A stretch of 38,650 nucleotides of DNA, taken from assembly GCA_022729855.1 (NCBI GenBank), contig DZBG01000013.1:1-38650 (forward strand), read 5' to 3'. Made by a program: the position numbers and the translations under genes. Of the stretch, positions 6,079 through 29,891 are shown piece by piece; the first letter of the stretch is position 1, and each line of letters begins with the position of its first letter. A model generated the notes under the pieces. The model was not told the origin of the DNA and made no database searches. It saw only the letters and a list, made by a program, of their open reading frames with translations. Source of the DNA: Bdellovibrio sp. (GTDB taxonomy: Bacteria; Bdellovibrionota; Bacteriovoracia; Bacteriovoracales; Bacteriovoracaceae).

Positions 6079-6858
6079 TCATGCGTGATAGCGGGGGAGA
6101 ATATGGGATTTCAAAAAGGCGTAGAGAAGAGTTGATTTCGTTGCCGCACTTTGACGAAAAATTTCGCATTCACGCCAAACAATGAGAAATTCGGCGAGGG
6201 CCTTTTTATCACTAAACTCATCGTGTTGAGTGGTCTCCCAATCAATCACGGCCTGAATCAGGTCATTCAGATCTCTAGGGCCATCTTTAAATTTTTCGAC
6301 GAAAGCTGAGAGAGTTAAATCACTTGATTTCCAAGCAGTCATGAGATCTGTGAGTTTAGTCATCTCAAGCGACCATTCGCCAGGGAGAATAAGTGACTGA
6401 GCGCGAGATAAGAGAGTTGGTAGCAATTTAATTCGTTTAGAATTGAGCATGAAAATAGTGACGATCTGAGTCGGCTCTTCAAGAATTTTAAGCCATTTAT
6501 TGGCCACGGTGGTTCCAACTTTATCAGCTTCAGTAATAACCACAAATTTTCTTTTAGACTGAAGGGCCTTGAACTCTAGAAAACGAGCAAGATCTGCAGC
6601 TTCGTCAACTTGATAACTTTGACGAGTATCTTCACCAAACTCTGTGGAGCCGATCCAGAGGACGTCTGGATGATCAATAAGTGATTTGGGAGTATGAGAT
6701 TTTTCAATTTCTGTGTAATAGCGATTAATAAAGGTTTCAGCAAAATAAAGAAGATCTTTAAAGGCCGTCTCAGCACTAGATTTTCCTGACTCAAGAATAT
6801 AAAAATGGGCGAGTTTATCTTCGGCCCCACTGACAAGAAGTTTATCTAAAAGTTTCAT
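6079..6858 (-). CDS. holB: DNA polymerase III delta-prime subunit (HolB-like)
   Basis: Clamp-loader subunit of the replicative polymerase. The AAA+ fold is recognisable from ITEADKV (sensor/Walker B region), NKWLKILEEP and the SRAQ motif where clamp loaders have SRC. The protein is short (259 aa) and lacks both a P-loop and the Zn-binding cysteines, as expected for a non-ATPase delta-prime. The Ala in place of Cys in SRC is a slight deviation. Its ATG overlaps the tmk stop by four bases (ATGA), so the two are coupled. The position between tmk and a ricT-like gene supports the call. Confidence 0.8.
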   Translation of the reverse strand: MKLLDKLLVSGAEDKLAHFYILESGKSSAETAFKDLLYFAETFINRYYTEIEKSHTPKSLIDHPDVLWIGSTEFGEDTRQSYQVDEAADLARFLEFKALQSKRKFVVITEADKVGTTVANKWLKILEEPTQIVTIFMLNSKRIKLLPTLLSRAQSLILPGEWSLEMTKLTDLMTAWKSSDLTLSAFVEKFKDGPRDLNDLIQAVIDWETTQHDEFSDKKALAEFLIVWRECEIFRQSAATKSTLLYAFLKSHILPRYHA

Positions 6859-7535
6859 GAGCTCATTCCCAGTCTGCTTTTTAAAATATTCTGTATTTGT
6901 TCAGTCACTGAATCAATATCTTTTTTAGCATCAATGAGGGCAATTCTCTGAGGGAAAAGGTGAACAAGATCGTCATGCCCTTGAATCAGTGATTCATAGA
7001 ATTGACTTGTTTCAGACTCAAAATAGTCTTTTTCCTGACCACGTTTAAGTTGTCTCTCCATTGATGTTTTTAGATCAATTTGTAGATACAAAGTGAGGTT
7101 CGGAAGAATATTTAAAGGGGCAAATTGATGAAGTGTCAGAACTTTTTCAAAGCCAAGCTTTCTTGCAATTCCTTGGTAAACCAAAGTGCTATCAATATAG
7201 CGGTCCAAAAGAACTACCGTGTTTTTTTTGCTGAGAAGAGGAAGAACTTTTTCTTTTAAAAGTTGCGCCCGCGAGCTTAAAAAAAGGTGACACTCACTCA
7301 TGGGATCCAAGGGAGATTCAGAATGAAGAATTGCCTCACGAAGCTTTTCTCCAAAGACCGTTCCCCCAGGTTCTCTGAAGCGATGGACTTCAAAACCATT
7401 TGCTTTCAAAAAAGTTTCGGCGTTTGTGATCTGAGTTGATTTTCCAGAACCTTCGATCCCTTCAAAAGAGATGAAAAAACTATTTTGTGTCGTGTCGGGA
7501 GATTGATATTTTGAGATTAAATGCGTTAGTTCCAT
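6855..7535 (-). CDS. tmk: Thymidylate kinase
   Basis: Phosphorylates dTMP to dTDP for DNA synthesis. Visible motifs are the P-loop FEGIEGSGKST, the REPGGT substrate loop and the DRY motif (DRYIDSTLVYQG). I chose the ATG at 7535 (226 aa). A GTG at 7550 would add five residues, but AGGA would then directly abut the start codon. No other in-frame start lies between 7535 and the P-loop. The N-terminus is about 15-20 residues longer than usual. The start codon and the nearest AGGAG both lie inside a 15-bp inverted repeat (see separate entry). The gene is followed by holB with an ATGA overlap. Confidence 0.9.
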   Translation of the reverse strand: MELTHLISKYQSPDTTQNSFFISFEGIEGSGKSTQITNAETFLKANGFEVHRFREPGGTVFGEKLREAILHSESPLDPMSECHLFLSSRAQLLKEKVLPLLSKKNTVVLLDRYIDSTLVYQGIARKLGFEKVLTLHQFAPLNILPNLTLYLQIDLKTSMERQLKRGQEKDYFESETSQFYESLIQGHDDLVHLFPQRIALIDAKKDIDSVTEQIQNILKSRLGMSS

Positions 7536-7563
7536 GAGTAGTAGTATCACTCCTCATGGAACT
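7528..7563 (-). promoter_or_regulatory. Hairpin enclosing the tmk ribosome-binding site and start codon
   Basis: Two 15-base arms (7563-7549 and 7542-7528, read on the minus strand) pair at 14 of 15 positions around a GATACT loop. The 5' arm contains AGGAG and the 3' arm contains the tmk ATG (7535). Transcribed from the upstream gene, it starts 9 bases after that gene's stop. There is no T run after it on the minus strand, so it is not a normal terminator. Translational control or RNA processing is inference. Confidence 0.55.
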
Positions 7564-7572
7564 TTTTGGCCA

Positions 7573-8694
7573 CTAGAAATCAGAAACTTCTTCAACTACA
7601 GGGATCGGTTCTGGAATTCCTTCCTCGATGGGCTGGAAGGCATTATCTAGGGACTCACCAGGCATGCCACCTTGAACAAGAGAGTGCTCTTCGGGCATTG
7701 AAGGTGCTTCGACTTCACCATAGGGTTCAGGTACTGGTGGTTCTTGGTAATTACTATGAGATTCGCGGTAAACTTCTGGGGCGTAAGTTGTGTCACGCTC
7801 AATCACTTGCTGGCGTGGACGAGGAACTTGGGCCTGAGGTTGAGGAACACTGGCCGGTGCTCTGACCGCCGCCTGAACTGGTCTTTGTCCTGCAATATTT
7901 CTTCCTAATTGGATATCATCTTCAATTCCAGCAAGGTCTACATTCCTATTATCATCAGAGAGTAAAAGCCATGAACTAAAAGCTCCAACAAGAACAACTG
8001 CAGCAGCTGAAAATCCAATCTTTTTACGTTTTTCCATTTGAAAAACTTCCTCATCTGTTTTGGGTGCATGAAAAGGAATTTCTTCAATATTAAGTTTCAC
8101 TTTCATGTCACGGTGATGATTAATATAGGCCAGTGAAGCCAGACCATTTGAGAGATTTGGTCTTTCATCTTCAGATTCCCATTTCTCAGTAGTCTCAGCT
8201 TCAGAGTGAAGAAACGATGATTCCACCGGCAGAGCAGGAAGACCCATAGTCTCACGATGTCTGCGATCAAATTGTGGATGGAGATATAATTTTGTCCATT
8301 GATGGCCATCATCCCAAGTAATCAAATCCGTCAGTGCGAGCTCTTTTGTTGCCCACATCGTCTCAATGTCTTTAATTGAGTGAGGACCATTTTTTACGCC
8401 ATCAACAAGGGCATAATAACTTGCCTTCTCCCAGTCAGTATTGGGAAGAATTTCGGGAGTACGGCGCTGAAATTGGACTAATGAGAAAAAGGGTTGCCAG
8501 CTAGGTGACATCATAGGCGAGGCCATAGCGTCATCGAACTGCTCAGGGAATTTTCCCGAATGAAGTTTAAGAGCACCCGTTTCAAAGGGGCCATAGACTT
8601 TTTTATCAATTTTTACCAACCAGAGACTATTGGAATCAAGACCTAAATCGTTAATAGTCTCATCTGTTAGAGCTTGCAGGTCTAACGCCGCCAT
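7573..8694 (-). CDS. Single-pass membrane protein with two GYF-like domains
   Basis: No assigned function. Two N-terminal repeats (about 24-75 and 92-140) each carry the YGPF / NGPHS pattern and a tryptophan, as in GYF_2 (DUF4339-like) domains. GYF domains generally bind proline-rich peptides. A low-complexity linker follows, then a single membrane segment at about 226-246 preceded by EKRKK. The C-terminal 120 residues are rich in Pro, Gln and Glu (for example PVPEPYGE). The positive charge before the membrane segment puts the GYF domains in the cytoplasm and the Pro-rich tail in the periplasm. It is first in the minus-strand run ending with sbcC. AAGG lies 5 bases before the ATG. Confidence 0.6.
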   Translation of the reverse strand: MAALDLQALTDETINDLGLDSNSLWLVKIDKKVYGPFETGALKLHSGKFPEQFDDAMASPMMSPSWQPFFSLVQFQRRTPEILPNTDWEKASYYALVDGVKNGPHSIKDIETMWATKELALTDLITWDDGHQWTKLYLHPQFDRRHRETMGLPALPVESSFLHSEAETTEKWESEDERPNLSNGLASLAYINHHRDMKVKLNIEEIPFHAPKTDEEVFQMEKRKKIGFSAAAVVLVGAFSSWLLLSDDNRNVDLAGIEDDIQLGRNIAGQRPVQAAVRAPASVPQPQAQVPRPRQQVIERDTTYAPEVYRESHSNYQEPPVPEPYGEVEAPSMPEEHSLVQGGMPGESLDNAFQPIEEGIPEPIPVVEEVSDF

Positions 8695-20299: not shown

Positions 20300-20385
20300 A
20301 GTTTCCTCTCGAAAATGCCGTTTTAATTCTATACTACCGAGCTCATCTTCAATTGAGATTTTGAATCGTACAGGAGAATTTGTTT

Positions 20386-21324
20386 ATGGCCTACCGCCTG
20401 TCTGGTGTGAGTGATTTTTCAGCCGATTCAAATGCATTTAATGAGCAGCCATTGTTTGGGCAGAAACTTGGTGATGCCTTCTCCCTTTCTCATCTTGGAC
20501 TTGTGGTATTTCATTGGGCCGATTTTTCTGAAACATGTGAGCTATTAGAAAAACAAATGAAGGGAGATGAAACTCTCTCTGGTGATTTTGTCGCTATGAA
20601 AGAGCGTGTTCATTCTTTACGCCAAATTCCTATTTGGGTTCAGTGCGGGAGGAAAGTTCGTCAGTTTAATCTGTTTGATTTGTATGCGAGTTATATTTTA
20701 AACCAAGGGCAAGAGAGACTTGATCCTCATCTCCCTATGGATATCTCTTTTATTTCTGGCTCTGGGCCATTTAAAAATATGGCCATTTCAGAATGTTTTA
20801 ATCACCAGCTCTATCACGATATGGTGATGGTTCTTTTACTTGAACAGAAGATTCCTAAACGTGATTTTAGAATTCGTGTGAAGGCGAAACTTTTGGTTGA
20901 GTATGGAGAGAATTTTGAGAAAGGTCATTTATTTCAATTAGAGCAAATGACAGGGCATGGTCTTTTATTTTCATGTGATTCTGAGTTCTATTTTAAAGAG
21001 TGGGCCGGAATCAAAAATATGAGGGTCTTGATAAATTCAGAGATGATGAATGATGCTTCTAAGATGAGCTTAGATGAGATGAGACATTATTTTGATCAGT
21101 TTCCTTTTAATCTGATGTACTCTTCTCGCAAAGAAGATGCAGTAACTTTTAATACTGTAGATGTGCATAGCAATTCTGGCTTTGATTATTTTCTTCACAA
21201 AAAAGTTTATCTCTTTCTTCCATTTGAGAAAATTGAGGATTCGCACCAACATGCTGTAGGAAATCTTAAAATGTTTATTAATACGGCAAAGTCATTGGTG
21301 AGAAAAATCGCCACTAATCTTTAA
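20386..21324 (+). CDS. Unrecognised 312-aa protein with a possible degenerate PilZ domain
   Basis: No confident family. The ATG at 20386 is nine bases behind AGGAG; a TTG two codons earlier is less likely. The middle of the protein (about 165-215) reads KRDFRIRVKAKLLVEYG and then QMTGHGLLFSC. This resembles the PilZ pattern of a basic RxxxR loop followed by DxSxxG, with the Asp and Ser replaced. c-di-GMP binding would therefore be doubtful. There is no signal peptide or membrane segment. It converges on the recombinase gene, with one base between the stops. Confidence 0.5.
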   Translation: MAYRLSGVSDFSADSNAFNEQPLFGQKLGDAFSLSHLGLVVFHWADFSETCELLEKQMKGDETLSGDFVAMKERVHSLRQIPIWVQCGRKVRQFNLFDLYASYILNQGQERLDPHLPMDISFISGSGPFKNMAISECFNHQLYHDMVMVLLLEQKIPKRDFRIRVKAKLLVEYGENFEKGHLFQLEQMTGHGLLFSCDSEFYFKEWAGIKNMRVLINSEMMNDASKMSLDEMRHYFDQFPFNLMYSSRKEDAVTFNTVDVHSNSGFDYFLHKKVYLFLPFEKIEDSHQHAVGNLKMFINTAKSLVRKIATNL

Positions 21325-21325
21325 A

Positions 21326-22363
21326 TTACGAAGTCTTCTTATAATCCACATGGTAGGCCGCAGAATTTTTTAAATTTTCTCTGCGCTTATCATAGCGCTC
21401 AGTAGTGGTGATATTGGCATGCCCTGCAAAGATGGCGACATCACGAATGGGAGCCGACTGTGTGTCAAGCAGATGTGAGATCACAGTGGCGCGACATGAG
21501 TGGGGTGAAACTCTCTTATTGATGCCGAGGTTTCTCGCATACTTTTCAATGATTCTGTAAATGGTTGATCCATCAATTGGTTTTTCATTTTTTACTTTGA
21601 TATCAATTTGCAAAAGATAATCTTCAAAATCTAAAGTCACACCATTCTCTTTTAAATGATCAAGATAAGTTTGAATCTCTTGGTGAACGATATCATTAAT
21701 GGGAATAAGTCTAACCTTATCACCCTTACCATGAATACGAAGAACCGTGTGGCCTCGCTCTTTGGCAAAATCCATGAGTCTGATATGAGTGAGCTCTGAG
21801 CGACGAAGGCCTAAATTAAAAAGAAGCGCCATGCTTATTCTATGAAGAGCACCACGATGAGTTTTTGTATCAGGAGCATTAAGCATCTGAACAACTTCTT
21901 CATCATCAAAAGCAAGTGTAGGGGATTCAGTTTGTATTTTAGGCAGCTTCACCACATCCAGAGGATTGTGATCAATGAGTCTTGCGGCCACTGACCATTT
22001 CATAAATGAGCGAATACAAACCAGCCTGCGATTCACTGTCGCAGAAGCAAGGCCTCTTTCAATTAAATGATCACGGTATAAACCAAAATGAAAAGACTGA
22101 ATCTCATTAGGGTGAGTAACGGCGGCATTTCCTGATCTTAAAAAATCAAAAAAGAATTGAAGATCTTTCATATAGGCCGTTTTTGTATCAGGAGACAAAA
22201 ACTGCATGAGAAATTCGTTCATGAAATCATTGATGGATGTTTTTTTCTGTGAGGCCTCAGCAAATTTTCGGGCAAGGTCTTCATTGATTTGAACCCGGCC
22301 GTGCAGGTCTACTGCCTTGGTCTTTTGCTGGATGATGAGGTCTTTAGATGCTTTTTTGCCCAT
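21326..22363 (-). CDS. Tyrosine recombinase, XerC/XerD-like
   Basis: Site-specific recombinase of 345 aa. The catalytic set is visible: R187 (LGLRRSEL), K216 (GKGDKVRLIP), H288 and R291 (HSCRAT), H315 (GHANITTTERY) and nucleophile Y324. An N-terminal SAM-like core-binding domain spans about 45-140, preceded by some 40 extra residues. Length and motifs fit Xer or an integron/phage-type integrase. No tRNA, attachment repeats or excisionase were seen nearby, so chromosome-dimer resolution and mobile-element roles remain open. It is divergent from the metal-efflux genes. Confidence 0.85.
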   Translation of the reverse strand: MGKKASKDLIIQQKTKAVDLHGRVQINEDLARKFAEASQKKTSINDFMNEFLMQFLSPDTKTAYMKDLQFFFDFLRSGNAAVTHPNEIQSFHFGLYRDHLIERGLASATVNRRLVCIRSFMKWSVAARLIDHNPLDVVKLPKIQTESPTLAFDDEEVVQMLNAPDTKTHRGALHRISMALLFNLGLRRSELTHIRLMDFAKERGHTVLRIHGKGDKVRLIPINDIVHQEIQTYLDHLKENGVTLDFEDYLLQIDIKVKNEKPIDGSTIYRIIEKYARNLGINKRVSPHSCRATVISHLLDTQSAPIRDVAIFAGHANITTTERYDKRRENLKNSAAYHVDYKKTS

Positions 22364-22480: not shown

Positions 22481-22834
22481 ATGAGATTAATCAGTGGTTT
22501 AATCCTATTTGTTGTTCTTTTAATAAGCTCTTTTTCAGGGTCTAGAGTTGAGGCGCATACTGCTCACGAAAAAGAAGATCAGTCTCATTCTCAAGATATC
22601 ACTTATCATTCACACGATCATGTTGATCAGAGATCTTCGTCACAAGAAGATCCAACTGGCACCAAATGTCCTCATTTTCATATTCATGGGTCACCTGTTG
22701 TTTTGGCCCCTTTTTTAACTGATCATTTTCTAGATGTTTCACTACATTCATTTTCAAAAAATATTATCTACGATGTGAAAACACTTCGCCCCCAAGACTA
22801 CTCAATGTCGCTTTATCGTCCACCTATCGCTTAG
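22481..22834 (+). CDS. Small exported His-rich protein heading the metal-efflux operon
   Basis: 117 aa from the ATG at 22481; a TTG at 22472 is an alternative start. The N-terminal hydrophobic segment (about 4-25) reads as a signal peptide or anchor ending near VEA. The next 45 residues hold nine histidines (H26 to H69), including HSHDH and a CPHFHIHG element, which could bind copper, silver, zinc or similar ions. The C-terminus ends in YRPPIA. No enzyme domain is present. Position immediately before an RND metal pump suggests a periplasmic metal buffer or sensor; this is inference. Confidence 0.6.
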   Translation: MRLISGLILFVVLLISSFSGSRVEAHTAHEKEDQSHSQDITYHSHDHVDQRSSSQEDPTGTKCPHFHIHGSPVVLAPFLTDHFLDVSLHSFSKNIIYDVKTLRPQDYSMSLYRPPIA

Positions 22835-22883
22835 TATTCTAAATAGCACTTTAGTTTATTAAATTTCTGATAGGACTTATTTT

Positions 22884-25800
22884 ATGTTGAATTCAATTAT
22901 TCGTTTGGCCTTGCGCCAGCGCTTGTTCGTATTGGGCCTGTCCCTTTTATTAATTGTGGTGGGAACATGGCAAGCACTTCAATTACCCGTGGATGTCTTT
23001 CCCGATTTAAATAGGCCGATTGTGACGGTGATGACAGAGGCGAGAGGCCTTGCCCCAGAGGAGACTGAGATTCAGGTTACTATTCCTATTGAAAGTGTTT
23101 TGAATGGTTTGCCCGGACTCATCAGACTACGCTCATCAAACAGTGCAGGGATCTCAATTGTCTATGCTGAATTTGATTGGGGAACTGATGTTTATCGTAA
23201 TAGGCAGATTGTGGCCGAAAGACTGGAGCTGGCCAAAGAAAAATTACCTCCAGGAGTTTCACCTGTAATGACTCCAAGCTCATCTGTCATGGGTGAGATT
23301 ATGTTTGTAGGACTGACTTCTCCAAGTGGTGAAGTCTCGCCAATGGATCTCAGAACTCTCGCTGAGTGGACAGTAAGACCCAGACTTCTTGCTATCTCAG
23401 GAGTGAGTCAGGTTATTACAATTGGGGGAGATCTTAAGCAGTATCAAATTTTGGTTTCTTCAAACAAGATGCAGAAAAAAGGTTTGACTGTAGAGGACTT
23501 GAAGCATTCATTGGAAGAAATTGGTTTAAATACTTCAGGTGGGTTTATCAATATTGGTGAGAAAGAATATCTCATTCGCACCTTGGGTCGCGTGGAGAGT
23601 GTGGAACATATCCGCGAGGCTTATGTAGGCACTCACTTAGGAAATCCCGTTTCTGTTAAAGATATTGCCGAAGTTAAAATAGGCGCCCATTTTAAACGAG
23701 GTAATGGGTCAGTGAATGGAAAACCCGCTGTGGTGATGACTATTCAAAAACAACCAACCAGTGAGACTCTCGGACTGACAAAACGAATTGAGGCCGAGCT
23801 CAAACTTATCACTCAGACTCTTCCTAAAGGGGTGGAGATCAAGTCAGATCTTTTTAAGCAGTCTCATTTTATTGAGAACTCAATTGGGAATGTGACGGAA
23901 GCACTGAGAGATGGAACCATTATGGTGGTCATTATTTTAATGCTCTTTCTACTTAATTGGAGAACCACATTTATCACTCTTACGGCCATCCCATTATCAT
24001 TTGTTTTAACGGCACTCATTTTTAAACTTTTTGGCATTGGTGTGAACACCATGACTCTGGGAGGATTGGCGGTTGCTGTAGGAGAGTTAGTGGATGATGC
24101 CATTGTGGATGTGGAGAATGTTTTCAGGCGATTAAAAGAGAATAAAGAATTAGGAAGTCCAAAATCAACTTTAAAAGTTATTTATGAAGCTTCAGCCGAA
24201 ATTAGAAACTCTATTGTTTTTTCAACCATGATTGTGGTTTTAGTTTTTGTTCCACTTTTTGCTCTCGACGGTCTTGAAGGAAAACTTTTTGCTCCCATGG
24301 GGCATGCCTATATCATCTCTATTCTTGCCTCATTATTTATCTCTTTAACTGTCACACCAGTTCTTTGCTATTATCTCTTAGGAAAAAAATCTAATTCAAA
24401 AGATTCAGTCCATGAAAAAGATGGTTTTTTTGTCAGAGGATTAAAAACAGCCGCCGAGAAAGTCCTTCACTTTACGCTTAGAAGACCCCTCATTATTTTA
24501 GGAGGAACTCTCGTTTTGTTCCTCTTTACCATTAGTCTTACTCCATTTATGGGACGAAATTTTCTCCCCTCATTTAATGAAGGTTCGGCCACTCTTGGTC
24601 TTCAGGCCACGCCAGGTATCTCTCTTGATGCTTCAAACCAAAAAGGGCTTGAGGTTGAGAGAGCACTTCTTACTATTCCAGAGGTCAAGTCCACAACGAG
24701 ACGTGTAGGAAGGGCCGAGATGGATGAGCATGCTGAAGGTGTGAACTGGAATGAAATTGATGTGGATTTTCATAAAGAAGGCCGCTCTAAAGATGAGATC
24801 TTCTCTGAGATCCGTGAAAAAATTAAAGCAGTTTGGCCTGAGGTTTATGTTAATGCTGGTCAGCCCATTTCACACCGACTTGATCATATGCTCTCTGGTG
24901 TACGTGCTCAAATTGCACTTAAAATTTTTGGGCCTGATATTGTGGAACTTCGCCGACTTGGTGGGGAGCTTTATTTAAAGATTAAAGACATTAAAGGCAT
25001 TCGTGACGTGCAAGTGGAACCACTGGTTCAAATTCCTCAACTTAAAATCTTTATTGATAAAGAAGAAGTTAAGAAAGCGAGAATGAGTGCCGGAACCATG
25101 GCCAATGAGCTTGAGGCATTACTTAATGGTTATGATGCTGGCCAGGTGATTGAAGGACAGAAGATTTTCGGGATTCTTTTACGACTAGATGAAGAGTCGA
25201 GATCTAACCCTGAGCAAATTGAAAATATAAATCTAAAACTTCTTCCTACTGGAGATCACGTCAAAGTAAAAGACTTGGCCAATGTCTATAAAGGAAATGG
25301 GCCTAACATGATTAACCGTGAAGGATTGCAAAGACGACTTGTTGTTTCTGCCAATTCTGAGAATGTTGATTTAAAAGTTTTAGTGGATGCTATTCAGAAA
25401 GGATCTGAAGAAATTGATTGGCCAGCGGGGTATCACTTGGAAGTAGGTGGCCAGTTTGAAAGTCAGGTGAAGTCATCACAAAAAATGATATGGCTTGGTA
25501 TTATCTCTATCATTATTATTTTTCTTGTTCTCTTCCTACACTTTAACTCTAGTGTTCTTTCGTTTCAGATTATGTTGAATATTCCTTTAGCTCTTATAGG
25601 AAGTATTCTGGCCATCTATTTTACTGAAAGATCATTCTCACTGGCCTCACTCATTGCTTTTGTGACCCTTTGTGGAATTGCTTCTCGAAATGGAATCATG
25701 ATGATCTCACACTATCTTCATTTAATGACTGAAGAAGGATATGAATTTGGTGACAAATTAGTTATTCAAGGGACTCTTGATCGTTTGGTTCCTGTTTTAA

Positions 25801-26024
25801 TGACGGCCTTGACTTCAATTTTGGCCCTTCTTCCTTTACTCTTTGCCAGAGGTGAACCAGGCAAAGAAATTCTTCACCCCGTAGCGGTTGTTATTGTGGG
25901 TGGTCTTATTACTTCAACCCTTTTGGATCTTTTAGTGACTCCTGCGTGCTTTCGTCTTTTCGGTAAAAAAGCAGCAGAAAAATCAATGCAAAAACATCAA
26001 CAACAATTAACAGAGGAATTTTAA
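22884..26024 (+). CDS. Heavy-metal RND efflux permease (CusA/CzcA family)
   Basis: Inner-membrane proton-driven pump of 1046 aa, the standard size. It has the N-terminal helix with PVDVFPD, two large periplasmic loops and the two six-helix bundles. The TM4 motif GELVDDAIVDVEN replaces the DFG-DGA-VEN motif of CzcA. It belongs to a separate heavy-metal subgroup whose substrate I cannot name; monovalent or divalent ions are possible. GRAEMDEHAEGVN and PISHRLDHMLSG are further subgroup-type stretches in the periplasmic domain. AGGA lies eight bases before the ATG. Its stop overlaps the next gene by one base (TAATG). No adaptor gene accompanies it. Confidence 0.88.
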   Translation: MLNSIIRLALRQRLFVLGLSLLLIVVGTWQALQLPVDVFPDLNRPIVTVMTEARGLAPEETEIQVTIPIESVLNGLPGLIRLRSSNSAGISIVYAEFDWGTDVYRNRQIVAERLELAKEKLPPGVSPVMTPSSSVMGEIMFVGLTSPSGEVSPMDLRTLAEWTVRPRLLAISGVSQVITIGGDLKQYQILVSSNKMQKKGLTVEDLKHSLEEIGLNTSGGFINIGEKEYLIRTLGRVESVEHIREAYVGTHLGNPVSVKDIAEVKIGAHFKRGNGSVNGKPAVVMTIQKQPTSETLGLTKRIEAELKLITQTLPKGVEIKSDLFKQSHFIENSIGNVTEALRDGTIMVVIILMLFLLNWRTTFITLTAIPLSFVLTALIFKLFGIGVNTMTLGGLAVAVGELVDDAIVDVENVFRRLKENKELGSPKSTLKVIYEASAEIRNSIVFSTMIVVLVFVPLFALDGLEGKLFAPMGHAYIISILASLFISLTVTPVLCYYLLGKKSNSKDSVHEKDGFFVRGLKTAAEKVLHFTLRRPLIILGGTLVLFLFTISLTPFMGRNFLPSFNEGSATLGLQATPGISLDASNQKGLEVERALLTIPEVKSTTRRVGRAEMDEHAEGVNWNEIDVDFHKEGRSKDEIFSEIREKIKAVWPEVYVNAGQPISHRLDHMLSGVRAQIALKIFGPDIVELRRLGGELYLKIKDIKGIRDVQVEPLVQIPQLKIFIDKEEVKKARMSAGTMANELEALLNGYDAGQVIEGQKIFGILLRLDEESRSNPEQIENINLKLLPTGDHVKVKDLANVYKGNGPNMINREGLQRRLVVSANSENVDLKVLVDAIQKGSEEIDWPAGYHLEVGGQFESQVKSSQKMIWLGIISIIIIFLVLFLHFNSSVLSFQIMLNIPLALIGSILAIYFTERSFSLASLIAFVTLCGIASRNGIMMISHYLHLMTEEGYEFGDKLVIQGTLDRLVPVLMTALTSILALLPLLFARGEPGKEILHPVAVVIVGGLITSTLLDLLVTPACFRLFGKKAAEKSMQKHQQQLTEEF

Positions 26025-26470
26025 TGAAAACAATTCTAGTAGGCCTTCTTGCTCTTTTTACTCTTAACTCTTTTGCTCACGAAGGTGGTCATGGTGAAGT
26101 ATCTGAAGGGGGAAAATTTGGAGGAATCACGTCTCCTATCGTTCTTAATTCAGATGCCGGCAAAGGTGATCAAGCCAAAGTTTTATTTAAGGCCGAGCTG
26201 GTTCGTGCTGAATCGGGTAAATTAAGTCTTTATATCTTTGATAATGAGATGATGCTTTTACCACTTGATAAATTTGGTAATGAAGTGACTGCAAAACTTG
26301 AAGTGAAGAAAAAAGGAAAATTTACTTATTTTGGAGAATTTAAACTTACAAAACATGGAAACCATTTTATGGGCCAACTTCCTAAAGTTGAGTATAAACC
26401 CTTTAATATTGATATTTATCTTTCAGAGCAAAAACAAAAACTTTTTGTTGGTTTCTCTAACCTAGACTAG
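26024..26470 (+). CDS. Exported 148-aa protein of the metal-efflux operon, unknown
   Basis: A signal peptide is evident (MKTILVGLLALFTLNSFA), and the mature protein begins HEGGHGE. The rest is predicted to be mostly beta strands (VLFKAELVR, KLSLYIFDN, KFTYFGEFKL), with a Met-Met pair in NEMMLLPLDKF and more histidines in KHGNHFMG. It occupies the slot between pump and outer-membrane channel where a CusB/CzcB adaptor would be expected. At this length it lacks room for the hairpin, lipoyl and barrel domains of an adaptor. It may be a metal chaperone like CusF or a minimal adaptor. Both are inference. It starts within the pump's stop codon. Confidence 0.6.
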   Translation: MKTILVGLLALFTLNSFAHEGGHGEVSEGGKFGGITSPIVLNSDAGKGDQAKVLFKAELVRAESGKLSLYIFDNEMMLLPLDKFGNEVTAKLEVKKKGKFTYFGEFKLTKHGNHFMGQLPKVEYKPFNIDIYLSEQKQKLFVGFSNLD

Positions 26471-26481
26471 AAGAGGGATTT

Positions 26482-27723
26482 ATGAAGTATCTATTAAGTA
26501 TTCTTATGACTTTCTCTCTCGCTTATGCGGTAGAGAAGGTTGATGCAAATAATCTTGAACAATTGGTGAATGATAATCCTAATGTTCAGTCTTATCTTGA
26601 AAGACTCAAGAGTGCTGAACAATTAAAGGGACGTCTCACAAGATCATTTCTGCCTAAGGTGACTTTGTCTTATGGACATGAAAAATTCACAACTGGACCT
26701 TATTATAACACCAATCAACCATATGGTGGAGTTGAGGCCAGTTTGAATGTTTTTCATTCAGGGAAAGACAAAATAGAGAATGATAAACGTGAACGCGAAG
26801 CAGAGATTGCAAAGATTGATTCAGAAATGACAAAATCCTTAGTCCTTGCTGAACTTCGCAAATCGCTTTCTCATTATGCTTATCTTGAAGAAATTTGTTT
26901 AATAACAAAAGATGCTATTAAGCAAAATAATGTGAATTTAAAACGAGCTCAAAAAAGAATTCAAGCAGGTCTGGCCACAAGAACAGACCTTCTGGATTTT
27001 AAGCAACAGGAAGTTCAGTTAAGTCAGGAACTTGCTACTTTAGAATTTGAATTAGGAGTGACACAGAGACTAGTTAATACATTATTGGGATCTGATCCTA
27101 AGTCTGATTTAATCATCTCGTTTATGAATGCTCACCCTCAACATTCAGATGAAGAGTCACTCCATCTAAATGGAAAATCTCTTATTACTAAGCGTGCAGA
27201 ACTTACTCAAGAAGTGGCCAAGCTTGATTTAAAACAAAATGAAAGATGGTGGGCACCAAGTTTAGATGTCTATGCTTATGCACTGAGGTTTACTCAAAAA
27301 GAAAGAGAATACACCTCTACAGGCCAAAGAAATGATGTGACCCTGGGTTTTAAGTTTACCTTTCCCATTTTTGATGGAGGAGAAGGGAGAACTGTGGCCA
27401 AGTCATCTCTGGCCCTGGCCCGTGCTCAAGAAGGTCTTGTTCGTTCAAAAAATTTGGAGATTCAAAGAAATACTCAGGATGCACTTAAACGACTAGAGCT
27501 GGCCCATAATCTTATTCATGGATCTGAGGAGAATGCAAAGCTCATGTCAGAGTATCGTGCTGGGATTCTCACAGAGTACTCAAAAGGTGTTAAAAACTCA
27601 CCAGATGTTCTTCAGGCCTCTCAGCGTTGGATTCAGGCCCAGACTCGCTATGCAGAGGTTAAGAAGAACTATCAGTTTGCAAAAGTGGATGCAGTCTATC
27701 TTTCAAGTCTTCAAGGAAAATAG
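26482..27723 (+). CDS. TolC/CusC-family outer-membrane efflux channel
   Basis: A 413-aa outer-membrane factor that would form the exit duct of the metal pump. The signal peptide is MKYLLSILMTFSLAYA. Two repeated helical units are visible, each with the long amphipathic helices and Ala/Gln/Leu heptads of the OEP family (for example QAGLATRTDLLDFKQQEV and YSKGVKNSPDVLQASQRW), and beta segments such as VTLGFKFTFPIFDGG. No lipobox cysteine is seen, unlike CusC. GAGGG precedes the ATG. It ends the efflux operon at a terminator. Confidence 0.85.
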   Translation: MKYLLSILMTFSLAYAVEKVDANNLEQLVNDNPNVQSYLERLKSAEQLKGRLTRSFLPKVTLSYGHEKFTTGPYYNTNQPYGGVEASLNVFHSGKDKIENDKREREAEIAKIDSEMTKSLVLAELRKSLSHYAYLEEICLITKDAIKQNNVNLKRAQKRIQAGLATRTDLLDFKQQEVQLSQELATLEFELGVTQRLVNTLLGSDPKSDLIISFMNAHPQHSDEESLHLNGKSLITKRAELTQEVAKLDLKQNERWWAPSLDVYAYALRFTQKEREYTSTGQRNDVTLGFKFTFPIFDGGEGRTVAKSSLALARAQEGLVRSKNLEIQRNTQDALKRLELAHNLIHGSEENAKLMSEYRAGILTEYSKGVKNSPDVLQASQRWIQAQTRYAEVKKNYQFAKVDAVYLSSLQGK

Positions 27724-27730
27724 TTTATTA

Positions 27731-27766
27731 AAAAGATCAGCTCTCCCTATGGGGGACTGATCTTTT
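27731..27766 (+). terminator. Intrinsic terminator ending the efflux operon
   Basis: AAAAGATCAG (27731-27740) pairs perfectly with CTGATCTTTT (27757-27766), with an inner CTCCC/GGGGG stem and a TAT loop. It starts seven bases after the channel gene's stop. It lies between the pump genes and the two-component genes, so these probably have separate promoters. Confidence 0.85.
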
Positions 27767-27844: not shown

Positions 27845-28516
27845 ATGAACTCGATATTATTAGTGGAAGACGATCCTATTCTTGGTGAGGGCTTGGTTCT
27901 TAGCTTACAGCTTGAGGGCCATAATGTGGATTGGGCCAAATCAATTTCATCAGGACATGAGAAATGGAGTTCAAAACAATTTGATCTCGTTCTTTTAGAT
28001 ATGGGTCTACCAGATGGAATAGGTCTTGATCTGTGCCGTCTCATTAGAAAAAAAGATCAGAAGCTTGCTATTATTTTTCTCACTGCTAAAAATGATGAGC
28101 AAACTATTGTTGAATCTCTCAATGAAGGGGCCAATGATTTTATTAAAAAACCCTTCTCTCACCGTGAACTTATGGCGCGAATTAGAGCGGCCCTAAGGAT
28201 TAGTATTGCCACTCCTAAGCTTCTTAAATTTGGTGAGCTCGCGATTAATATTGATAAGCGTGAAGTGACTTTTCAGGAAGATAATATTGGACTCAATCGA
28301 AGACAATTTGATCTTCTGGCCTATTTTATGAAAAGACAGGGTGAGATCATTACCCGTGATCAATTGATTGAGCATCTCGGACAAGAGAATGAAATTTATG
28401 ATCGCACCATTGACTCTCACTTAAGTCAGTTAAGAAAAATTTTTAGAACCCATAAAATAAATAGCATTCAAATTAGTCCCGTTTACGGAGTAGGGTATCG
28501 ACTTGAAATTGTCTAA
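27845..28516 (+). CDS. OmpR/CusR-type response regulator
   Basis: 223 aa. The receiver domain has the acidic pair in LLVEDD, phospho-acceptor D52 (LVLLDMGLPDG) and Lys in IKKPF. The C-terminal winged helix (about 125-223) ends in GVGYRLE, typical of OmpR/PhoB regulators. It lies just downstream of the metal pump and overlaps the kinase gene by 14 bases, so it probably controls the efflux operon (inference by context, as for CusRS). No direct-repeat operator was identified. Confidence 0.9.
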   Translation: MNSILLVEDDPILGEGLVLSLQLEGHNVDWAKSISSGHEKWSSKQFDLVLLDMGLPDGIGLDLCRLIRKKDQKLAIIFLTAKNDEQTIVESLNEGANDFIKKPFSHRELMARIRAALRISIATPKLLKFGELAINIDKREVTFQEDNIGLNRRQFDLLAYFMKRQGEIITRDQLIEHLGQENEIYDRTIDSHLSQLRKIFRTHKINSIQISPVYGVGYRLEIV

Positions 28517-29891
28517 GATAATTCCTCTTTATACACGTTGGTTTATGCTTAGTGCGGCCCTCACCTTAGGGACAGTCCTTATCGGGTTTTATGTGACTCA
28601 TAAGCTGACTGAGGATGATCGAAATAAAGCGATGGGATCTCCTGCAAGAACTTTTCATCAACTCGTCTTGGATTTTTCAGTGAAAGGAAATATGTCCTTA
28701 GATGAGGCCTACCAATTAGTGGATAAGGCCTACGGCGAGAAGTTCCCTTTCACACGTATTCTGATTGATCCCAAAATAACTAAAATTAATAAAGATGATC
28801 CAGTCTTTGAACGCTATAAACTACCCGATGGGCGAGAGATTGTTTTTTATAAAGATCATATGATGAGACACGAAAATCGTGGACCGCCAGCGGGTGGACA
28901 TCATCATCGTAAACATGGCTTTGGCCCTCCTCCACCTCCAAGAGGTGAGACAGGGCCATTTAGACGTGGTTCATTTTATATCAGTATTATTACTATGCTT
29001 TGCTCTATTGTGGCAGGAGTTGGTTTCTCGGTGATGTTTATTGGTCTCTATTTGAGAAAAAAATCTAAACAAGCAGAGAAAATTATCTCTCGTTTAAAAT
29101 CAGGAGACTTAAAGGCGAGATTTGATCTCGGTAAAAGTGATGAAGCCAGTCTTCTGATGATTAAGTTTAATGAGATGGCCGACGCCATTGAGGGACTTGT
29201 TGAAAATCTTCGTGAAACTGAACTTGCACGAAAAACTCTTCTTCAAGAACTAGCTCATGATCTAAGAACACCTGTTGCCTCTCTTAAAAATTTACAAGAA
29301 ATGCTCATAGAGAAGGGTGATCTTTTAACCGCAGACAAGAAAAAACATGTTCAAGAAATGGCCTTGGGTGAGGTGATCTATTTTGAACGATTGGTAGAGG
29401 ACTTATTATTCTTATCTGGCGTGAATGATCCTAAGTATGATCAGTCATTTACTGATGTAGACTTAAAATCTCTTGTTTCACAAGAAATTGAACTTGTGGA
29501 ATCTGGAGAGATAGATGTTCTCTTTGAAGCGGATGAAAATATGACGATTAAAGGGAATGAACACCTTGTGCGCAGGCTTATTAAAAATGTTTTTTCAAAT
29601 GCTCACCGCTTCTCTCAAAAGAAAATGACGGTGTCATTAAAATCAGCTGAAAATGCAGTGATTCTCTCCGTTTTGGATGATGGGCCAGGCATGAGTGAGG
29701 ATTTGATTCGCACGTTTGGGGCCAAAAAATTCTCTCGAAATATTGATCACTCAAATAAGGACTATATATCTATAGGACTTGGCTCAGTGATTATGAAAAA
29801 AATCATGACTTTGCATGAAGGAGAAATGGAAGTGATAAGTCACCAAAATCCTTCAGGTTTAGAAGTTCTCTTTAAATTCAAACTTAACTAA
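28503..29891 (+). CDS. Sensor histidine kinase with His-rich periplasmic loop
   Basis: Starts at TTG 28503, with TAGGG seven bases upstream; the next ATG would cut into the first membrane helix. Membrane segments are at about 12-33 and 157-184. The periplasmic loop between them carries a His/Pro-rich stretch (H119, H123, HHH at 133-135, H138, then PPPPP). A HAMP domain precedes the H-box with H252 (ELAHDLRTP). An N-box (NVFSNAHRF) and G-boxes (DDGPGM, GLGSVIM) complete a HisKA-type kinase. The G2 box is weaker than the usual GxGLGL. Metal sensing is inferred from the loop and from the adjacent pump. Confidence 0.88.
   Translation: MKLSKIIPLYTRWFMLSAALTLGTVLIGFYVTHKLTEDDRNKAMGSPARTFHQLVLDFSVKGNMSLDEAYQLVDKAYGEKFPFTRILIDPKITKINKDDPVFERYKLPDGREIVFYKDHMMRHENRGPPAGGHHHRKHGFGPPPPPRGETGPFRRGSFYISIITMLCSIVAGVGFSVMFIGLYLRKKSKQAEKIISRLKSGDLKARFDLGKSDEASLLMIKFNEMADAIEGLVENLRETELARKTLLQELAHDLRTPVASLKNLQEMLIEKGDLLTADKKKHVQEMALGEVIYFERLVEDLLFLSGVNDPKYDQSFTDVDLKSLVSQEIELVESGEIDVLFEADENMTIKGNEHLVRRLIKNVFSNAHRFSQKKMTVSLKSAENAVILSVLDDGPGMSEDLIRTFGAKKFSRNIDHSNKDYISIGLGSVIMKKIMTLHEGEMEVISHQNPSGLEVLFKFKLN

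Follow-up and report, generated by a model that had tools for sequence, protein, structure and literature searches.

A CusA/CzcA-type RND operon of Bdellovibrionota without an adaptor gene and possible direct docking of its pump onto a TolC-type channel

Described systems and the locus

The heavy-metal efflux systems CusCBA and CzcCBA combine a resistance-nodulation-division (RND) pump of family TIGR00914 with an outer-membrane channel of family PF02321, and the same two families occur in an operon at positions 22,481 to 27,723 of the DNA analyzed here, a 38,650-nucleotide stretch from Bdellovibrio sp. (GCA_022729855.1, contig DZBG01000013.1; the window). The window operon differs from CusCBA and CzcCBA in that the adaptor is missing and in the transmembrane segment 4 (TM4) and metal-site motifs of its pump, which are those of the NieA group. 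Adaptors are regarded as the central connectors of tripartite pumps, and direct contact between RND pump and TolC was long disputed between deep-interpenetration and tip-to-tip models (PMC4446572). The window operon is a CusA/CzcA-type RND system in which this defining part was tested for and not found.

The nearest described pump group, NieA/HME5 ('class 6'), is represented by nieIC cep nieBA of Cupriavidus neocaledonicus, for which nickel has been proposed as the substrate (PMC7060636). By HRLDH and HAEGV(H/N) the window pump would belong to the same group, and both operons also contain a leader gene (nieI in C. neocaledonicus), a gene for one more exported protein, and a channel gene, but the C. 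neocaledonicus system retains an adaptor, NieB, and the channels described here form a separate group. The CrdA-CrdB-CzcB-CzcA copper system of Helicobacter pylori (PMC9182242; PDB 9ll2, 9ll4) likewise encodes a small periplasmic β protein together with a heavy-metal efflux (HME) pump and other efflux components, but it keeps the adaptor CzcB. CrdA is Met-rich and without His, whereas the 148-amino-acid (aa) protein of the window has an N-terminal His stretch and no Met motif. Among systems with a reduced adaptor, the nearest precedent is the Borrelia burgdorferi RND system BesABC (PMC4446572; PMC3807786), whose BesA lacks the helical hairpin and was noted to be reconcilable with direct pump-channel binding but incompatible with tip-to-tip models (PMC4446572). 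BesA is still an adaptor, whereas in the window system the adaptor gene is absent altogether. No report of an RND system without an adaptor gene was found in the open-access literature, subscription journals and preprints lying outside the search; the wording 'PAP-free' is absent from the available portions of PMC8277102 and PMC13328181, as is any mention of Bdellovibrio from those of PMC10872679.

The features of the operon are as follows.

22481..22834, + strand: His-rich exported leader, 117 aa, weakly CzcI-like (NCBIfam), C-terminal RPPI
22884..26024, + strand: HME-RND pump of the putative NieA-like group, adaptor-less clade, 1046 aa (TIGR00914 above cut-off; clade support 0.988)
23439..23687, + strand: pump docking subdomain DN, residues 186-268 (conservation; boundaries presumed from alignment with AcrB)
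25035..25301, + strand: pump docking subdomain DC, residues 718-806 (conservation; boundaries presumed likewise)
26024..26470, + strand: exported protein, predicted CrdA-like β-sandwich, 148 aa, N-terminal HEGGHG (AlphaFold2 model, mean pLDDT 86.9; CrdA 9ll2, Z 9.9)
26482..27723, + strand: TolC-family outer-membrane channel (outer-membrane efflux protein, OEP), 413 aa, dedicated to the pump (PF02321, 5e-39; AlphaFold2 model with TolC match; own clade)
26968..27000, + strand: OEP periplasmic tip 1, GLATRTDLLDF, residues 163-173 (conservation and AlphaFold2 model)
27574..27618, + strand: OEP periplasmic tip 2, EYSKGVKNSPDVLQA, residues 365-379, the most conserved window of the channel (conservation and AlphaFold2 model)

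This order of leader, pump, 148-aa protein, and channel had been proposed, with its coordinates, in a first-pass annotation made from the sequence alone, and both proved correct. The overlap of the 148-aa start with the pump stop was confirmed as well, the ATG of the one and the TAA of the other having a single base in common. The operon leaves no space in which an adaptor could be encoded.

Absence of the adaptor

Adaptors were sought with TIGR01730, PF16576, and a profile built from HME adaptors. In the window genome (G000; 2.8 Mb in 177 contigs, 99% complete, with Bacteriovoracaceae and Bdellovibrio as its nearest named matches), TIGR01730 and PF16576 gave credible adaptors on four contigs only, and these neighbor, by labels assigned by eye from sequence, an RND pump of their own (C162), an MFS-type transporter (C20), ABC genes (C19), and a MacB-like gene (C114). 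The HME-adaptor profile added a single match, of lipoyl type (E=6.6e-4). With these three tools, no unassigned periplasmic adaptor (membrane fusion protein, MFP) was found in the operon or in the genome. Ten further pump-bearing genomes were searched in the same way and the neighbors read in 20 regions (the matches of G028 and some lipoyl-type matches lie outside these), again with no unassigned adaptor in the regions read. These contain MacA-MacB, EmrA-MFS, HlyD-ABC or secretion systems, and CusB with its own CusA, together with a lipoyl enzyme, a membrane protein of 586 aa, and short adaptors that each accompany an RND pump of their own. One pump-bearing genome that is 99% complete (G032) has no adaptor by any of the tools: TIGR01730 finds only a lipoyl-type protein (E=3.3e-4), PF16576 finds nothing, and the HME profile gives no adaptor either. 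Another (G131, one contig, 100% complete, among 12 further genomes) yields just two adaptor-search matches, which by coverage and length are probably of the ABC and 586-aa types. As a control, 58 named loci of sister pumps, all outside the clade, do yield an adaptor with the profiles. A co-occurring adaptor encoded elsewhere in the genome, which the first-pass annotation had named as grounds for refuting its own reading, was rejected, since profile searches and neighbor reading in G000 and in the 20 regions of its relatives gave none that was unassigned.

The arrangement extends well beyond the window. A pump search in 59 relatives returned one group at 46-80% identity, separated by a gap from all others (≤33%), and in the complete neighborhoods the pump is accompanied by a small protein and an OEP but by no adaptor of its own. 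At these loci and those of the named-genome scan, the presence or absence of an adaptor was judged from six-frame maps. A scan of named genomes (80 loci) found an adaptor in 58, none in 18, and four unclear cases at contig ends or with missing parts (L072, L082, L099, L142). The 18 are from relatives of Bdellovibrio, Bacteriovorax, and Oligoflexus; one locus labeled Bdellovibrionales (L131) has an adaptor, and its pump groups with the adaptor-containing pumps. At L082, from a Bacteroidota metagenome-assembled genome, the pump is preceded by a small protein of related type and by one of 418 aa without a Pfam family (6253-7969), and neither adaptor nor OEP was found within the 8-kb flanks.

Within the phylum of the window, a pump of this group is present in 100 of 290 genomes. 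From this list 98 loci were taken beyond those in the first neighborhood set, and 77 of them have at least 3 kb on both sides; several of the 98 are apparently records of the named scan, so that neither the 77 nor the 98 are all new relative to the 80 loci, and G059/G060 are apparently the same genomes as G179/G270. The adaptor is absent from the fetched flank in 76 of the 77 full loci, and the one adaptor seen, at L194, is flanked by an additional OEP and an additional pump of CusA type and belongs to this neighboring Cus system. No adaptor occurs in the 21 partial loci. The OEP adjoins the pump in 77/77 full loci, and a small protein stands between or beside the two in all of them (74 by profile, three on reading). 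The recurrence of this gene order across the phylum exceeds chance, and the initial description of an RND operon without an adaptor is strongly supported, by the genome searches, the phylum loci, and the single clade described below, far more widely than in the window. In one genome (G290, contig C90), two pumps of this group are in tandem (L207 and L243), the second with an in-frame TGA in its match.

In a FastTree phylogeny of 91 pumps and three outgroups, from which the short L063 and L064 and three duplicates had been dropped, a single clade (support 0.988) unites the 29 adaptor-less pumps with the truncated L072 and has no adaptor-containing pump inside. Their channels behave in the same way: 26/26 OEPs of adaptor-less pumps fall in one clade (support 1.0), separate from the OEPs of adaptor-containing relatives and from those of MacA, EmrA, and Cus systems. 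The single pump clade is consistent with one adaptor loss, and the simplest reading of both trees would be that one such loss took place and that pump and channel were inherited together afterward.

The pump and its docking domain

The pump meets TIGR00914 (CusA/CzcA) with 747.7 bits against a cut-off of 701.45. It contains HRLDH, the NieA-group motif at the proposed proximal site, and at the HAEGVH position of that group it reads HAEGVN, many clade members having HAEGVH; these motifs would place it with the NieA group. The first-pass annotation had also singled out an uncommon TM4 motif. The motif, GELVDDAIVDVEN, is indeed present in the window pump, but it is not peculiar to this operon, being carried by adaptor-containing sister pumps as well. 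As a marker of the adaptor-less form it was rejected in favor of a property of the wider pump group (from this comparison 11 adaptor-containing pumps had been thinned out, and the four unclear loci were excluded).

The docking domain was compared between 108 adaptor-less and 58 adaptor-containing pumps after removal of near-identical sequences, those bearing stops, and those below 1000 aa. When the remainder of the protein is equally diverged, the adaptor-less clade exceeds the other pumps in DN conservation in 7/7 bins (by 0.07-0.13) and in DC conservation in 6/7 bins (by 0.04-0.13), with little difference in PN2 and PC2. DC is 89 residues long in 108/108 adaptor-less pumps versus 86-88 in 58/58 others, and 8 of the 13 clade-diagnostic columns fall in the docking domain, which holds 17% of columns (hypergeometric P=3.2e-4). 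Drift of the docking domain would be expected in a pump that no longer touches its partners; none is seen, and decay of this domain after adaptor loss was rejected because the reverse holds for DN and DC.

The channel

Tip 2, EYSKGVKNSPDVLQA, is the most conserved 15-residue window in 109 OEPs (0.644 versus a mean of 0.233), with the consensus EYxRGVKNSPDxxxA. Among 43 OEPs from adaptor-containing relatives, the score at the corresponding site is 0.303, and the residues there are different. In the AlphaFold2 model, the two conserved OEP windows lie at the helix-turn-helix tips, with helix breaks predicted at 368-372 and 163-166.

The 148-aa protein

No meaningful Pfam or NCBIfam match was obtained for the 148-aa protein, adaptor families included. 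Its AlphaFold2 model is a β-sandwich without a helical hairpin (pLDDT 86.9, falling below 50 at residues 18-25, which include HEGGHG). VIA-align ranks H. pylori CrdA first (9ll2; Z 9.9, root-mean-square deviation 2.7, 99 aligned residues, 4% identity), followed by CrdA with silver (9ll4, Z 9.8) and copper-bound FetP, HftA, and relatives (Z 8.7-9.3). The 148-aa protein is thus predicted to have a CrdA-like copper-protein fold. Plain Foldseek with the same model gave no match below 0.001, and PDB sequence searches with profiles of the small proteins gave none or chance-level matches, with no sequence-level match to CrdA. The Met-rich copper site of CrdA, MMXEMPGMXXMXEM, is absent from the 148-aa sequence.

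In profile comparisons, to whose scores signal peptides contribute, the 148-aa family matches standalone proteins of adaptor-containing operons (probability 98.8 for Bacteroidota, 98.5 for Proteobacteria and others) and, more weakly, an additional N-terminal domain that some adaptors carry, or the standalone version of that domain (97.1). Against the adaptor core only 30 columns align, comprising the signal peptide and HEGH, and a shortened adaptor core was rejected on that ground. The idea of a small metal-binding protein standing in for the adaptor, or representing a shortened one, accordingly finds no support as first worded, given this alignment, the CrdA fold of the model, and relatives in other phyla that stand beside adaptor-containing pumps. 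Such relatives point instead to an old accessory rather than a purpose-made substitute, and the protein is best read as an older metal-binding accessory retained after adaptor loss. Identity among its relatives ranges from 15 to 62%. A second small exported protein, of the HGEDKPGPNGGFVRMPGAFHTE type and profile-related to the CrdA-like protein, is found near the same pump at five loci:

L070:7552-7977, HGEDKPGPNGGFVRMPGAFHTE-type small protein
L071:7562-7984, HGEDKPGPNGGFVRMPGAFHTE-type small protein
L077:4573-5019, HGEDKPGPNGGFVRMPGAFHTE-type small protein
L055:11399-11788, HGEDKPGPNGGFVRMPGAFHTE-type small protein
L057:8601-9053, HGEDKPGPNGGFVRMPGAFHTE-type small protein

Leader, regulators, and substrate

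The 117-aa leader scores 16.7 bits against the NCBIfam CzcI model NF045614, short of the cut-off of 100. Similar leaders lie upstream of related pumps, several with the RPPI ending. Six loci have a CsoR-family regulator in the vicinity of the pump, and 5/6 of these regulators have the C / H-x3-C pattern, which we take to be the fingerprint of a Cu(I) sensor in this family. These regulators and the copper-protein fold predicted for the small protein make copper a first guess for the substrate.

Mechanism

Whether this heavy-metal system has lost its adaptor for good and its pump docks directly onto its own TolC-type channel is, in our estimate, evenly balanced. Direct docking is favored by two observations: conservation of the docking domain exceeds that in adaptor-containing relatives, and the part of the channel conserved most strongly is a periplasmic tip. 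The pump would take up toxic metal ions, copper being the first guess and nickel the published one for the nearest described group, while the CrdA-like protein would bind periplasmic metal and either buffer it or hand it over. The funnel (docking) domain of the pump, reshaped in this clade, would then engage the periplasmic tips of its channel directly, a contact perhaps steadied by the 148-aa protein, and export would cross both membranes.

Several points weigh against direct docking. The OEP has an ordinary TolC fold and length and is therefore not extended in a way that could span the gap left by the adaptor. Covariation is weak: of the 100 top-ranked pump-OEP pairs, 6% link the docking domain to a tip, where 2.6% would be expected, and taken by itself the docking domain shows no enrichment among covarying pairs. 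The conservation counts are not phylogenetically independent, the DN and DC boundaries are our assumption, carried over from AcrB by alignment, and in the bin of lowest identity the adaptor-less clade has the lower DC conservation (0.318 versus 0.393). Finally, MacA- or EmrA-type adaptors, in principle shareable, are present in most pump-bearing genomes, G032 being without them.

An alternative is a minimal bridge recruited from the 148-aa protein, of which several copies would ring the pump funnel and grip the channel tips, thereby doing part of the work of an adaptor. Its place between or beside pump and OEP in 77/77 full loci and the overlap of its gene with the pump stop codon in the window would suit such a role, but the protein has no helical hairpin, is variable (15-62% identity) where constraint might be expected, and, having relatives that accompany adaptor-containing pumps, predates the loss; we regard the bridge as unlikely. 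The pump might instead borrow an adaptor of MacA, EmrA, or HlyD type encoded elsewhere, or use one too divergent to recognize. Adaptor sharing between pumps is known in enterobacteria (PMC8446912), and most genomes here have MacA- or EmrA-type candidates, but G032 lacks an adaptor by two families and one profile, and the two matches of G131 appear to be only of ABC and 586-aa type. The profile used, moreover, picks up adaptor-like proteins down to 220-229 aa, which speaks against an overlooked one, and a borrowed or unrecognized adaptor seems distinctly improbable. Very unlikely is an uncoupled arrangement in which metal is moved into the periplasm and bound by the small protein while the channel works separately, a scheme that fits the missing adaptor and the availability of a predicted metal-binding periplasmic protein of CrdA fold, but not the adjacent OEP in 77/77 full loci, the descent of the OEPs, like the pumps, as one clade, or docking domain and channel tips that are conserved rather than relaxed.

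Flanking features

Downstream of the operon are a response regulator and a histidine kinase (27845-29891). The scan for terminators returned candidates at background level, one of them 3' of the OEP; promoter-like sites numbered 19, versus 13.0 ± 3.4 in shuffles.

27735..27766, + strand: terminator-like stem and T run, 3' of the OEP (scan count at background)

On the other side, an ordinary XerC/XerD-like tyrosine recombinase (window 21326-22363, - strand) is divergent from the operon, and a 314-aa open reading frame (window 20380-21324, + strand) has no Pfam or NCBIfam match.

Other RND operons of the phylum and implications

Other RND pumps of Bdellovibrionota were surveyed as a sample rather than a census. 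Among the other complete RND operons of the window genome only C162 (L269) has an adaptor; those on C100 (L268), C63 (L265), and C112 (L266) are OEP-RND pairs without one, accompanied by MarR-, TetR-, and ArsR-like regulators. In B. bacteriovorus kdesi, Bdellovibrio sp. qaytius, G041, and G032, 14 regions with other RND pumps have an adaptor by profile in 0/14 and, in 7/14, a codirectional OEP gene adjoining the pump. G250 has an adaptor in 1/6 RND regions, found at E=3e-85, an indication that the profile works. The pumps at L270-L283 and L285-L289, RND pumps of several other kinds and many of them beside an OEP, have no adaptor in the flank by profile. Several RND families of the phylum may thus have lost the adaptor. 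Two loci have profile-detected adaptor-like proteins encoded between OEP and RND pump (L054:11808-12497, 229 aa; L156:1649-2311, 220 aa), too short for a full adaptor and possibly an intermediate stage. At the same position Bdellovibrio sp. qaytius has a 180-aa His-rich exported protein and no adaptor (L275:4796-5338).

It is conceivable, and we hold it with some doubt, that RND efflux in Bdellovibrionota works largely without adaptors, pumps of several families docking straight onto TolC-type channels of their own. If true, this would be a natural, phylum-wide two-part pump across the envelope, of which the NieA-type metal pump of the window would be the best conserved case. A phylum with cultured members in which the adaptor gene is absent lets the purpose of the adaptor be tested, and it also opens to study how a channel is recruited and opened without one and how metal leaves such cells.

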